Below, in pieces: positions 1,856-6,655 of a stretch of DNA of 6,655 nt. Location: contig JACPQZ010000037.1 of the NCBI GenBank assembly GCA_016190205.1, positions 1-6,655 on the forward strand. Reading direction: 5' to 3'. The notes under the pieces are model-generated. The model was given only the letters and a program-made list of their open reading frames with translations. It made no database searches and was not told the origin of the DNA. This DNA is from Candidatus Omnitrophota bacterium (lineage in GTDB: Bacteria; Omnitrophota; JACPQZ01). The stretch's first letter is position 1; each line of letters opens with the position of its first letter. The position numbers were made by a program, and so were the translations under genes.

Positions 1856-3568
1856 ATGGCTAAACGCCTGAACGTGCGGCTGGGGGACCTCCTGATCGAA
1901 AAGGGGATCATTACCCAGGCGCAGTTGGACCAGGTACTCAAGGAAAAAGAGGAATCAGGGGGGTTTTTCGCCCAGGCGCTCATCCGGCTGGGCATCGTGA
2001 CCGAAGAAAAGGTCCTGCCCATCCTGGCCGAACAGCTCGGCATTGAGTATGTCCGGGTGAACTCTCTCCAGGTGGACCGTACTGCCATCGAGAAGGTCCC
2101 GGCGCGGTTCGCGGTCTATTACAAACTCATGCCTGTCCGGTTCGAGGACAACCTGCTGACCGTCGCGATTGCAGATCCGCTGGACGTGCACACGCTGGAC
2201 GATTTGAGGCTTCTCATCAATTGTAAGATCCGGCCTGTCTTGGCAAGCGAAAAGGAGATCCTCGAGGGGATAAACAAATACTACGGGGTGGGGGCAGAGA
2301 CCATTGAGCGGATCATCGACGATGTGCCCCTCGAGAAAAAGCCGGCGCGCGCGGGTTTTGAGACGCAGGACCTGGCCGACCTTTCAGAAGACGCCTCGAT
2401 CATCAAGTTCGTCAATCAGCTCCTCCTCGGGGCCTACAATGACCGGGCCACCGACATCCATATCGAGCCGTTTCAGGATTCTCTGAGGGCGCGCTACCGG
2501 ATTGACGGAATCTTATACGAAACGCCCATACCACCCACGATCAAGCAGTTTCAAGATGCGATCGTCTCGCGCATCAAGATCATGGCGAGCCTAAACATCG
2601 CCGAGCGGCGTCTCCCCCAGGACGGGCGGATTAAGGTCAAGGTGGAGGGCAAGGAGCTTGACCTGCGCGTGTCCGTCCTTCCCACCCCGTACGGGGAATC
2701 GGTGGATATCCGCCTCTTGAGCACCGATATCCTTTTGGATCTCAAATCGATCGGATTTACGGAGGAGGACCTCGCCGTCATCGGTACCGTCATCAAGAAG
2801 CCCCATGGCATCGTCTTTCTAACGGGTCCCACGGGAAGCGGAAAGACCACGACCCTGTACGCGATGCTCAATTCCATCAATGCCACGTCCAAAAAGATCC
2901 TGACGATCGAAGACCCGATCGAATACATGCTCTACGGGATCATCCAGATGCAGGTACAGCCTAAAATAGACTTCACCTTTGCGACCGGTCTAAGGTCCAT
3001 GCTGCGGCACGACCCGGATGTCATGATGGTGGGGGAGGTGCGCGATTTTGAGACGGCTGAAATAGCCATCCGGAGCGCCCTCACTGGCCACCTCGTCTTT
3101 TCCACCCTGCATACGAACGACGCGGCGGGCGCGATTACCCGCCTTCTGGACATGGGGGTGGAGCCCTATCTCGTGTCCTCTTCGCTTGAGAGCATCATCG
3201 CCCAGCGCCTGGTGCGCAGGATTTGCTCCCAGTGCAAGAAGGAGGTGATCCTCACCCCTTCGGTTTTGAAGGAAATGGGCGTCAAGGAAATGATGGGGAT
3301 TGTCAAGGCGGCCGAGGGCGCCGGGTGCGAGGCCTGCAAGTTCACGGGTTATAAGGGCAGGACCGCCATCCATGAGATTCTGATCCTGAATGAAGATTTG
3401 CGCGATCTCGTCATGGAACGCTCGGGGTCGAACACGATACGTCTGCGCGCCATTGAGCAGGGCATGCGCACCCTGCGTGAATCCGGCTGGGAGAAGGTGA
3501 AGCTCGGCATCACCACCCCGAGCGAGGTGATCCGTGTGACCCAGCAGGGCGCGCTTCTGGACAGTTAA
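1856..3568 (+). CDS. gspE: Type II secretion / type IV pilus assembly ATPase GspE (PilB-like)
   Basis: A 570-residue hexameric motor ATPase on the cytoplasmic face of the inner membrane. It powers pseudopilus extension through GspF. The N-terminal GspE_N/MshEN region (about 8-145) begins with RLGDLLIEKGIITQAQLDQV (8-27). The ATPase core has Walker A GPTGSGKTT (324-332, catalytic Lys330), an Asp box TIEDPIEY from 350, Walker B VMMVGEVRD (389-397, Glu394) and a His box GHLVFSTLHTND (411-422). A tetracysteine zinc motif, C457-SQ-C460 and C491-EA-C494, is typical of GspE and PilB and absent from retraction ATPases such as PilT. GTGAGG (1845-1850) precedes the ATG by 5 bases and overlaps the stop of the HTH gene. 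The following gspF and pseudopilin genes favour a T2SS assignment over PilB, but sequence alone does not exclude a type IV pilus-related role. Confidence 0.95.
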   Translation: MAKRLNVRLGDLLIEKGIITQAQLDQVLKEKEESGGFFAQALIRLGIVTEEKVLPILAEQLGIEYVRVNSLQVDRTAIEKVPARFAVYYKLMPVRFEDNLLTVAIADPLDVHTLDDLRLLINCKIRPVLASEKEILEGINKYYGVGAETIERIIDDVPLEKKPARAGFETQDLADLSEDASIIKFVNQLLLGAYNDRATDIHIEPFQDSLRARYRIDGILYETPIPPTIKQFQDAIVSRIKIMASLNIAERRLPQDGRIKVKVEGKELDLRVSVLPTPYGESVDIRLLSTDILLDLKSIGFTEEDLAVIGTVIKKPHGIVFLTGPTGSGKTTTLYAMLNSINATSKKILTIEDPIEYMLYGIIQMQVQPKIDFTFATGLRSMLRHDPDVMMVGEVRDFETAEIAIRSALTGHLVFSTLHTNDAAGAITRLLDMGVEPYLVSSSLESIIAQRLVRRICSQCKKEVILTPSVLKEMGVKEMMGIVKAAEGAGCEACKFTGYKGRTAIHEILILNEDLRDLVMERSGSNTIRLRAIEQGMRTLRESGWEKVKLGITTPSEVIRVTQQGALLDS

Positions 3569-3578
3569 GAAACGCCGT

Positions 3579-3748
3579 TCGTGAATCGTGCATCGTGGAT
3601 CGTGAATCGCAAAAAAGAAACCAGTGATGAGATGAAATCCGAAATCCGAAGAATTTCGAATTTCGTGCTTTAGATTTGTTCGTGCTTCGCATATCGAGAT
3701 TCGGATTTGAACACCTTCGAATCACGATTCACGATTCACGAATCACGA
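3579..3748. repeat. Repeat element A: nested inverted heptad arrays between gspE and gspF
   Basis: This element fills nearly all of the 204-bp gap between gspE and gspF. Its outer arms are 31-bp imperfect inverted repeats (3579-3609 and 3718-3748; 27 of 31 positions match by eye) made of 7-bp units of the TCGTGAA type. Inside lies a second inverted pair: two GAAATCC heptads (3634-3650) against TTCGGATTT (3700-3708). A 9-bp direct repeat TTCGTGCTT sits in the core (3662-3670, 3679-3687). The left junction (3593-3624) is a perfect 32-bp match to element B (5943-5974), and 3724-3748 is a perfect 25-bp match to 6200-6224. No transposase, clear target duplication or coding frame is visible. It could fold into a large hairpin in the operon mRNA and change the E/F expression ratio (inference). 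Confidence 0.85.
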
Positions 3749-4994: not shown

Positions 4995-5426
4995 ATGTTA
5001 CGGAACCAGAAAGGTTTCACCTTAATCGAACTTACGCTAGTTGTTCTTATCATAGCCGCCTTGGCGGCAATGGTTGGCCCGCGACTTGTGGGCCGGGCAG
5101 AAGATGCCCGGGTCGCCGCCGCGCAAGCAGACATCAAATCCAACCTTTCCACGGTCCTGGACCTCTATGAAATGGACAACGGCAGTTACCCGGAGTCGCT
5201 CGTCCACCTGTGGCAGAATCCGGGGTCCGATCGAGCCTCGAAGTGGAGGGGGCCTTACCTCAAAAAGAAAAGCCCCCGCGACCCATGGGGGAATGAGTAC
5301 CAGTACCGGAGCCCGGGGGAGCACAATACGGAGGACTACGATCTTTATTCCATGGGTCCTGACGGCGAGGTGAGCGAGGACGACATCACGAACTGGGAGG
5401 AAGAGGCGGGGGAGGCTGTCGATTAG
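4995..5426 (+). CDS. gspG: Major pseudopilin GspG
   Basis: A 143-residue pseudopilin and the main subunit of the periplasmic pseudopilus. The class III leader MLRNQKG^FTLIEL is cut after Gly7 by the prepilin peptidase. It leaves Phe+1 and the conserved Glu+5, followed by a hydrophobic helix (about 8-29). Diagnostic GspG features are the DPWGNEYQY motif (96-104) and the C-terminal calcium-site region DLYSMGPDGEVSEDDITNW (116-134), with Asp123 and Asp130 as likely ligands by analogy with known GspG proteins. The ribosome-binding site AAGGAGG (4983-4989), 5 bases from the ATG, overlaps the gspF stop and is the strongest in the operon, fitting the need for many copies. The 3' end overlaps the inferred gspH start. 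Confidence 0.97.
   Translation: MLRNQKGFTLIELTLVVLIIAALAAMVGPRLVGRAEDARVAAAQADIKSNLSTVLDLYEMDNGSYPESLVHLWQNPGSDRASKWRGPYLKKKSPRDPWGNEYQYRSPGEHNTEDYDLYSMGPDGEVSEDDITNWEEEAGEAVD
5411..5415 (+). promoter_or_regulatory. Ribosome-binding site that places the gspH start at ATT 5422
   Basis: GGAGG sits inside the end of gspG, in a longer purine run (about 5398-5415). It is 6 bases before ATT 5422, good spacing for initiation there. It is far from the first canonical start in frame, GTG 5458 (42 bases), and has no gap before CTG 5416. This supports the ATT start. Confidence 0.55.
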
Positions 5427-5910
5427 GCGCGGATTCACTTTTATAGAGCTCATCCTGGTGGTGCTCGTCATGGGGGTGATCGTAAGTCTGGCGAGTCCAC
5501 GCTTGAGCCGGAGCTTTAAGGGCCTGTCCGCCGATAATTTTGCGTACGACCTCGCACGCCTTACGACCACCCTGGGGGAACGCGCCGTCGCCGAGGGAAA
5601 CGTTTACCGGCTTGCGTTTGACGAGGACCGCACTGCCTATTGGACCGAACGTGCGCCGGGGGGCCTGGTGCCGGGCGAGACCAGCTCCTTTAAGAAGGTG
5701 AAGGACCGCTACGGCATGGTGCGCAGGGTGCCCGCGGGCGTTACCGTTGAGGCGCAGGGTGAAGCCCCGACGTTTTTCCCGAGCGGGGAGCAAAGCCCTT
5801 TCACCCTCACCATCCTGGAGAATGGAAATCCCTTTTACGTCCTGTCCAGCGAGGGGGTGTACGGGTACACGCGGCTCGAGGAAGTGGGTCCGGAGGGCGT
5901 CGAACCGTGA
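5422..5910 (+). CDS. gspH: Minor pseudopilin GspH, apparent ATT start
   Basis: A minor pseudopilin of about 162 residues that belongs near the pseudopilus tip. Read from ATT 5422 it begins M-R-R-G^FTFIELILVVLVMGV, a standard prepilin leader with Gly-1, Phe+1 and Glu+5. The GspH-type body follows, with LASPRLSRSFKGLSADNFAY near 23-42 and a beta-rich globular domain ending GYTRLEEVGPEGVEP. There is no ATG, GTG or TTG in frame between the upstream stop at 5371 and GTG 5458. Starting at GTG 5458 would discard the leader and half the signal helix, which cannot give a working pseudopilin. ATT 5422 shares one base with the gspG stop and follows GGAGG by 6 bases, implying translational coupling. ATT starts are rare but known (infC, pcnB in E. 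coli). CTG 5416 or a sequence error are alternatives. Confidence 0.88.
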   Translation: MRRGFTFIELILVVLVMGVIVSLASPRLSRSFKGLSADNFAYDLARLTTTLGERAVAEGNVYRLAFDEDRTAYWTERAPGGLVPGETSSFKKVKDRYGMVRRVPAGVTVEAQGEAPTFFPSGEQSPFTLTILENGNPFYVLSSEGVYGYTRLEEVGPEGVEP

Positions 5911-5915
5911 TGTGC

Positions 5916-6021
5916 CGTGGATCGTGGATCGTGGATCGTGGTTCGTGGATCGTGAATCGCAAAAAAGAAACCAGATACCAGTTGCCAGTAACCAGAAGAG
6001 ACCAGATACCAGAAACCAGAA
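5916..6021. repeat. Repeat element B, left arm: heptad arrays between gspH and gspI
   Basis: Six in-phase heptads of the CGTGGAT type (5916-5957) are followed by a short A-rich junction and then seven ACCAGAT-type units (CCAG at 5971, 5978, 5985, 5992, 6002, 6009, 6016; one 10-base step). The junction 5943-5974 repeats 3593-3624 of element A exactly. The arm begins 6 bases after the gspH stop. It is the inverted counterpart of 6088-6230: even the single irregular step in the ACCAGAT array is mirrored there, so the two arms share an origin. Confidence 0.88.
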
Positions 6022-6047
6022 CAGAGGATTTGTAACAATAGGACAGT

Positions 6048-6053
6048 AGGGGG
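6048..6053 (+). promoter_or_regulatory. Ribosome-binding site for gspI, inside the loop of element B
   Basis: AGGGGG lies 7 bases before TTG 6061, the first canonical start in frame for gspI. It sits in the unique stretch of about 66 bases (6022-6087) between the two inverted arms of element B, so in a folded mRNA it would be in the apical loop. It supports TTG 6061 as the true start. Confidence 0.5.
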
Positions 6054-6060
6054 TAGATAG

Positions 6061-6630
6061 TTGAAGATCAAATTGCTGCACGCAGGGTTCTGGTACCTGG
6101 TCTCTGGTATCTATCTGGTATCTGGTTACTGGTTTCTGGTTACTCAAGTTGTCTGCTACGTTTCACGATTCACGAATCACGAATCACGAATCACGGGTGA
6201 CGATTCACGATTCACGAATCACGAATCACGAAAATGGCTTGCAGGGTTTTTATTGTTTGAGGTCCTCGTCGCCGTCGCGATAGTATCGGCCACCCTCGTC
6301 TTTATCACGCGCGGGTTTTCAACGAGCCTGCGCGCCATCCGTCTGTCGGACGGGTATCTGGCGGCGACGTGGCTCGCGGAAGAGAAGCTGGAGTCCTTGG
6401 CGCGCCGCTTTTCCGAAGACAATGACCCCTCCATCCTTTCTGACCGGGGGCATTTCCCGAGGCCTTATGACTCTTTTTCATGGAAGACAGACTCGGAAGA
6501 ACTCGAGGAACTCCCCCTGCGGACCGTGGAGCTCGTCGTGAACTGGGAGGAAGGCCGCCGGCGCGAGGAGATCAGGATGGACACGTATTTTTATCTGCCC
6601 GAGACGGCGAGGGAAAGGCTTGAGAAGTGA
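6061..6630 (+). CDS. gspI: Minor pseudopilin GspI with an inserted 53-codon repeat-derived leader
   Basis: As it stands the frame encodes 189 residues from TTG 6061. The real pseudopilin starts at Phe63: LAG^FLLFEVLVAVAIVSA with Glu+5 (Glu67), a hydrophobic helix, and the GspI-type LAEEKLESL segment near 104-112. GspI is a minor tip pseudopilin that complexes with GspJ and GspK. Residues 10-62 are translated from the right arm of repeat element B. They comprise a hydrophobic Trp/Tyr/Val-rich stretch (about 10-34), then twice the peptide SRFTNHESR (35-43, 49-57). No canonical start lies between 6076 and the cleavage site. Without residues 10-62 the protein would be MKIKLLHAG^FLLFE and 136 residues, normal for the family. 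Whether the 62-residue leader is tolerated, or gspI is effectively impaired, cannot be decided here. The stop overlaps the gspJ start. Confidence 0.85.
   Translation: MKIKLLHAGFWYLVSGIYLVSGYWFLVTQVVCYVSRFTNHESRITGDDSRFTNHESRKWLAGFLLFEVLVAVAIVSATLVFITRGFSTSLRAIRLSDGYLAATWLAEEKLESLARRFSEDNDPSILSDRGHFPRPYDSFSWKTDSEELEELPLRTVELVVNWEEGRRREEIRMDTYFYLPETARERLEK
6082..6089 (+). repeat. Left copy of 8-bp direct repeat GCAGGGTT flanking the insert in gspI
   Basis: GCAGGGTT encodes Ala-Gly-Phe at codons 8-10 of gspI and recurs at 6241-6248 in the same frame. The distance of 159 bp is exactly 53 codons. Heptad DNA starts at once after the GCAGGG (first CTGG at 6090). It looks like a target-site duplication. 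Confidence 0.65.
6088..6230. repeat. Repeat element B, right arm: heptad arrays inside gspI
   Basis: Seven TCTGGTA-type units come first (CTGG at 6090, 6097, 6104, 6115, 6122, 6129, 6136; one 11-base step). After a 24-base junction come ten units of the CACGAAT/CACGATT type in exact 7-base phase from 6164 to 6230. This is the inverted counterpart of the left arm at 5916-6021. The segment 6200-6224 equals 3724-3748 of element A. The arm lies wholly in the gspI frame and carries no stop codon in it. Confidence 0.88.
6241..6248 (+). repeat. Right copy of 8-bp direct repeat GCAGGGTT in gspI
   Basis: This second copy of the repeat at 6082-6089 encodes Ala61-Gly62-Phe63, the functional prepilin cleavage site. 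It is separated from the last heptad by 10 bases (6231-6240). Confidence 0.65.
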
Positions 6631-6655
6631 GCCGCAGGGGGTTTACGTTTCTCGA
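6627..6655 (+). CDS. gspJ: Minor pseudopilin GspJ, 5' end only (cut by window edge)
   Basis: Only the first 29 bases are present. GTG 6627 overlaps the gspI TGA by the classic 4-base GTGA, with AAGG (6615-6618) 8 bases upstream. The translation MSRRGFTFL is a prepilin leader: cleavage after Gly5, Phe+1, and the next codon starts GA, consistent with Glu+5. The name GspJ rests on this leader and on the G-H-I order; the globular domain is not visible. Confidence 0.75.

Follow-up and report, generated by a model that had tools for sequence, protein, structure and literature searches.

A dispersed heptad-repeat palindrome in the gspI leader region, and heptad arrays in prepilin leaders, of an Omnitrophota bacterium

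Described prepilin leaders and repeat elements

The leaders of type IV prepilins (class III signal peptides) are hydrophilic, variable in length and cytoplasmic, and end in a Gly or Ala after which prepilin peptidase cuts; about 20 hydrophobic residues follow, usually with Glu at +5 (PMC10191384). The leaders described here differ in being made from heptad-repeat DNA and in reaching up to about 65 residues, and that of gspI, the gene studied in most detail, additionally holds a hydrophobic stretch. There is a described case of repeat DNA inside genes in the Rickettsia palindromic elements (RPE), which are dispersed palindromes with no self-encoded mobility, found in frame in unrelated protein genes (PMC10969869). 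The gspI element is likewise palindromic, dispersed and in frame, a likeness of description that implies no membership in the RPE families. RPE measure about 150 bp and encode a conserved peptide, whereas here we find nested 7-bp arrays. Besides, the fusion studied here lies in a leader of the kind that is cut off, and the mature protein would be unchanged once the repeat-encoded peptide is removed.

Heptanucleotide repeats as such are also on record. Geobacter metallireducens has abundant heptanucleotide repeat elements (PMC2700814), and arrays of TAACTGA are located just upstream of start codons in Beggiatoaceae and Cyanobacteria (PMC4679880). The arrays found here resemble both in being numerous, short, built of 7-bp units, mostly intergenic and in some cases genic. 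However, their units are different ones, and those of Geobacter and the TAACTGA arrays have been proposed to be regulatory sites. TAACTGA itself gives stop codons in every frame, in contrast to the open arms of the present element. Prokaryotic MITEs and REP-type palindromes are dispersed inverted repeats without genes, as is the case here, but we found neither constant termini nor a target-site duplication, and the arms consist of tandem heptads. In-frame palindromes and abundant heptanucleotide elements are, then, known; their repeated presence as prepilin leaders we have not found described. Neither for Omnitrophota nor for prepilin leaders did the literature searched, a collection with few subscription papers, yield any report of heptad repeats.

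The palindrome between gspH and gspI

The window, that is, the whole stretch of DNA analyzed, corresponds to C26, a 6655 bp contig in a draft genome of 76 contigs and 1.65 Mb. The host phylum is taken to be Omnitrophota, as the hits in two genomes of the same phylum, G046 and G375, are identical in sequence to the Omnitrophota MAG loci L185 and L186. It carries rarA/mgsA, a small HTH gene and then gspE, F, G, H and I. The right end of the window, 6564-6655, overlaps exactly with the end of contig C63, which therefore joins C26 and carries the operon on into gspJ and gspK. A second gsp cluster is located on contig C37, and its own gspI has a heptad leader too. The features of the window that matter here are the following, all on the forward strand.

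3579-3748, forward: heptad palindrome of the same family as the gspI element, in the gspE-gspF gap
5458-5910, forward: gspH (minor pseudopilin), stop TGA at 5908-5910, prepilin motif TIGR02532 at 5425-5493
5910-5912, forward: ATG that overlaps the stop of gspH (TGATG), probably where gspI began before the putative insertion, judged from the sequence and the gspI starts of relatives
5916-5959, forward: outer left arm, (CGTGGAT)n heptads, complementary to the outer right arm
5966-6021, forward: inner left arm, (CCAGNNN)n heptads
6022-6088, forward: element core, common to the C23 copy and partly to the C59 and C34 elements
6061-6063, forward: TTG within the core, the sole ATG, GTG or TTG in the gspI frame upstream of the cleavage site
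6089-6140, forward: inner right arm, (TATCTGG)n heptads, encoding the hydrophobic segment YLVSGIYLVSGYWFLV
6141-6162, forward: linker TTACTCAAGTTGTCTGCTACGT, conserved among copies
6163-6232, forward: outer right arm, heptads (TCACGAA)n without a stop in any frame of this strand
6233-6246, forward: probably what survives of the native leader (..KWLAG), its Gly(-1) codon being 6244-6246, placed by the sequence and by the lack of a common element end after the arrays
6247-6630, forward: gspI body, mature N-terminus FLLFEVLVAV (TIGR01707)

The region 5916-6232 is a nested palindrome of the form (CGTGGAT)n - (CCAGNNN)n - core - (TATCTGG)n - linker - (TCACGAA)n. Its RNA is predicted to fold as a single long hairpin (-150 kcal/mol, z -10), and its heptad units are degenerate, with 72-91% matches. 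Within the core lie AGGGGG (6048-6053), TTG 6061 and the octamer GCAGGGTT (6082-6089). BLAST gave 131 matches to the element in about 37 places of the genome, both strands of the palindrome being counted. Contig C23 carries a copy with 93% identity over 5929-6181, including the core with TTGAAGATCAAATTGCT.CACGCA, which differs from the window core at several bases, and parts of the core recur in elements on C59 and C34. Where the window has GCAGGG, all three related cores (C23, C59 and C34) have GCATGG. An exact pattern taken from the element had no match in the genome contigs searched. The element is thus palindromic and dispersed, with several related copies, and neither a target-site duplication nor conserved copy ends were found for it. 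Specifically, when 39 right flanks of TCACGAA arrays were compared, there was no common terminus beyond a few similar pairs. We had also considered AAATGGCTTGC, located after the array, as a worn element end and rejected it, its likeness to GCACGGCTCGC being only weak.

Heptad elements are present at three junctions of this operon, E-F, H-I and J-K. The gspH frame is open upstream to about 5416 without any ATG, GTG or TTG in the extension; none precedes the cleavage site, and the start would be CTG 5416 or ATT 5422, behind GGGGGAGG.

The gspI product is GspI-like and its gene sits between gspH and gspJ/gspK. Its best family match is TIGR01707 (28.3 bits, E 1.8e-6), for which the curated cut-off is 44.35 bits. 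The prepilin signal G^FLLFEVLVAVAIV has the Gly/Ala at -1, the hydrophobic stretch and the Glu at +5. The leader that would be read from TTG 6061 is not of the hydrophilic, cytoplasmic sort (Kyte-Doolittle up to 1.56 over 19 aa), unlike the other heptad leaders of the AVRSTQY type, which are hydrophilic. In relatives without the element, gspI leaders are short and overlap the upstream stop (MRSIPKNSKG, MISATGKSKG, MILRTGKNKKG and MSMSSRRNRKG). The first of these belongs to the closest GspI found (L022, 40% identity), from the same phylum but another genus and family. By analogy with this overlap in relatives, the native gspI start was probably ATG 5910, with ...KWLAG^FLLFE as what is left of the leader. 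The frame of ATG 5910 is now out of frame with gspI and reaches a stop inside the element.

The first-pass annotation had read this region in another way, and much of its description holds. Two copies of GCAGGGTT are found at 6082-6089 and 6241-6248, 159 bp apart, with heptad arrays occupying most of 6089-6232 between them. AGGGGG and TTG 6061 are present, the frame 6061-6630 is open (189 aa), and there are 62 residues to the Gly(-1) of G^FLLFE with a hydrophobic segment among them. From this, the annotation derived a duplicating event that had brought in, or expanded, an array at precisely the cleavage codon, leaving an 8-bp flanking duplication, in a gene whose ancestral leader was MKIKLLHAG. 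The repeat is indeed exact and the collapsed leader behind AGGGGG and TTG is neat, but we give this model almost no credence. The left copy of GCAGGGTT is internal to an element that starts at about 5916, and since it recurs as element DNA in other copies, with one substitution, it is not half of a duplication flanking an insertion. The DNA behind MKIKLLHAG is element core as well, present in C23 and partly in two further elements. The model also leaves the upstream left arm unaccounted for, and the array stops at 6232, short of the Gly(-1) codon. Chance alone often yields an 8-mer shared at such a distance: when a 30-nt stretch was slid along the window and compared with the 322 nt before it, 22 of 110 positions had one in common, as did 7.7% of shuffled sequences. 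Finally, the leaders of relatives, a comparison that the annotation had itself proposed, differ from MKIKLLHAG, the closest being the repeat-free MRSIPKNSKG^ILLFE of L022. What stands is the in-frame repeat element in the leader region of gspI. A different matter is whether this gspI is being lost, the element having cut the gene off from its start and the TTG frame being accidental, a prospect to which we give real weight while inclining somewhat to the contrary. ATG 5910 now leads out of frame into a stop, TTG is the only start, the genome has the second gsp cluster on C37, and the hydrophobic FWYLVSGIYLVSGYWFLVTQVV in the leader may turn the topology around, with the cleavage site then out of the peptidase's reach. 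However, the body of gspI runs undamaged through 128 codons within a full gsp operon, and the other array-bearing prepilins of the genome are likewise intact. Translation from TTG 6061 and correct processing of this gspI are, as far as the sequence allows us to judge, doubtful, and that this copy is impaired or lost seems to us a little short of an even chance.

Heptad arrays and prepilin leaders in this and other genomes

To describe the arrays of this genome we used a 400 kb sample chosen without regard to repeats. It held 74-99 period-7 arrays (74 at a cut-off of 25/35) and none of periods 4, 5, 8, 10, 11 or 13. The intergenic fraction was 63%, against 10% under random placement. Many arrays stop within about 25 nt of a start codon, and about 11% of genes have one within 60 nt of their start.

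In 8 of the 19 prepilins defined by motif, the sequence directly before the cleavage Gly/Ala had a period-7 score of 26-34 (of 35), while the other 11 scored 14 or less. The same statistic was applied to the start codons of the sample genes, with p-values that are only indicative because the background starts are longest-ORF calls, hence rough, and the prepilins cluster in a small number of operons, which limits their independence: scores of at least 21 were found in 8/19 prepilins and 30/368 genes (p = 1.4e-4), scores of at least 26 in 18/368 genes (p = 6e-6 versus the prepilins), and a looser test without gspI gave 9/20 versus 40/382 (p = 1.7e-4). The background set includes one array-bearing PilX-like protein. 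Beyond the 8/19, gspK and a PilX-like protein also carry heptad arrays that extend in frame to the cleavage Gly/Ala. The array of gspK (L095, G000:C63, minus strand) is of another family, GTACAGC / GCAGTAC, and lies in frame in the leader; the gene has the SD GGAGG, an ATG overlapping the gspJ stop and 65 codons up to RG^TILIITLW.

Similar leaders were found outside this genome. Among 129 prepilins of relatives, six had such arrays, with several different heptads. One heptad type occurred before the prepilin motif in 6/384 genomes of the phylum, and the reversed control pattern in none. When about 85,000 species were scanned, this type of fusion appeared at eight loci, three of them in Omnitrophota, three in Planctomycetota and two in Patescibacteria. 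Several of the genes are well formed: L180, L182, L186 and L187 have a ribosome-binding site, ATG, a heptad leader and G/A^FTL.E, and the gspG of G035 has the leader MIKTHNAIRNTRDA^FTLIE behind TAGGAGGG. In G046, two of the three loci of the scanned heptad type are the leaders of gspI and gspJ.

On contig C36 (L123, G000:C36:1-20000), GTAAACCTGGTGACTAGACT-ATG-ACGCAGTACGC stands ahead of two different genes, near 199-247 and 3384-3436, one for a PilX-like prepilin (MTQYAVRSTQYEQG^IALIL) and the other for a protein with a Sec-like signal (MTQYAVRSTQYEPCLLIFVTMLAVLCLQPVSVQAE). To judge by this arrangement, in which for instance GACTATGACGCAGTACGC precedes both genes, the element on C36 seems to carry its own start codon. 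Contig C70 (L121, L122) has a lipoprotein-like signal (AVRIAASLLILVTLLAPGC), and also a SurA/PpiC-like protein in which TATCTGG-type heptads encode the sole hydrophobic N-terminal segment. Sec signals may also be made from repeat DNA.

How the heptad leaders may have arisen

The element at 5916-6232, a single copy of the nested heptad palindrome dispersed in this genome, probably displaced the short native leader of gspI, as a case of a general pattern. It would have entered, by insertion or copying, somewhere from the gspH stop to the gspI cleavage site. The gspI frame now runs back through the right arms to TTG 6061 in the core. More generally, heptad arrays would spread into the DNA near gene starts and be purged where they meet sequence that matters, which in prepilins would be the cleavage codon and not the start codon. 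Arrays would accumulate in prepilin leaders up to the Gly/Ala(-1) codon, which they could reach because prepilin peptidase removes the leader. The leader itself would need little beyond a start codon, a hydrophilic charged make-up and the Gly/Ala at its end. The coding properties of the heptads agree with this picture. As 7 and 3 are coprime, a stop-free 7-bp unit encodes one and the same heptapeptide in all frames (AVRSTQY for GCAGTAC, SRITNHE for TCACGAA), and as the outward-reading heptads have no stop in any frame, fusions readily stay open. Heptad DNA would be tolerated in such leaders because they are removed and under loose constraint and because the heptads are open in three frames. 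We infer the insertion into an older short leader, the tolerance through leader removal and the translation of the heptad leaders. Tolerance of a repeat-derived leader, one of the two outcomes foreseen in the first-pass annotation, is supported by the many other prepilins with heptad arrays. Overall, the data suggest that repeat DNA can land safely in a peptide destined for removal.

Heptad arrays might merely be frequent near all gene starts, without prepilins being special. The arrays close to the starts of about 11% of genes speak for this, as do the many other genes with arrays at or in the N-terminus, but we find it unlikely in view of the matched statistic (8/19 versus 30/368), of G046, which has one heptad type at three loci, two of them prepilin leaders, and of the independent recurrence in other phyla. 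The heptads could also act as phase-variation (contingency) repeats, since the length of the unit is not divisible by three, and each 7-bp change in the stretch from the start to the cleavage site would shift the frame and switch the prepilin on or off. Their degenerate units (72-91% matches) lower slippage, and we regard this as quite improbable. An assembly artefact, in which a repeat was wrongly joined between gspH and gspI, has on its side that the genome is a draft in 76 contigs and that some heptad elements lie at contig ends. The expected operon order on both sides, the several bases at which the core differs from the C23 copy and the same architecture in independent assemblies of other organisms make it more improbable still. 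Insertion and tolerance in a removable leader is the reading we retain.

A more ambitious version, which we put forward only tentatively and rather doubt, is that heptad palindromes are portable N-terminal modules, some with their own start, and that AVRSTQY/YLVSGIW arrays have been recruited repeatedly, in several phyla, as leaders. If true, the recruits would be cleaved prepilin leaders and parts of Sec and lipoprotein signal peptides, and repeat DNA would supply the leaders of exported proteins over and over again.

The reading we retain points to a route from non-coding repeat DNA to coding sequence, through fusion to a stretch of protein that is discarded afterwards, with the mature protein unchanged, and it predicts at which sites repeats enter genes harmlessly. 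The prepilins with unrelated, repeat-made leaders form a natural set with which the minimal needs of prepilin peptidase and of targeting can be tested. As a caution, the prediction of start sites and signal peptides can fail in heptad-rich genomes.

Among the heptad-leader prepilins, Ala and not Gly is often found at -1 (L026, L030, L141, L142, L180, L184 and L191). In the gspJ of G046 (L026), the Ala(-1) codon prolongs the heptad array.
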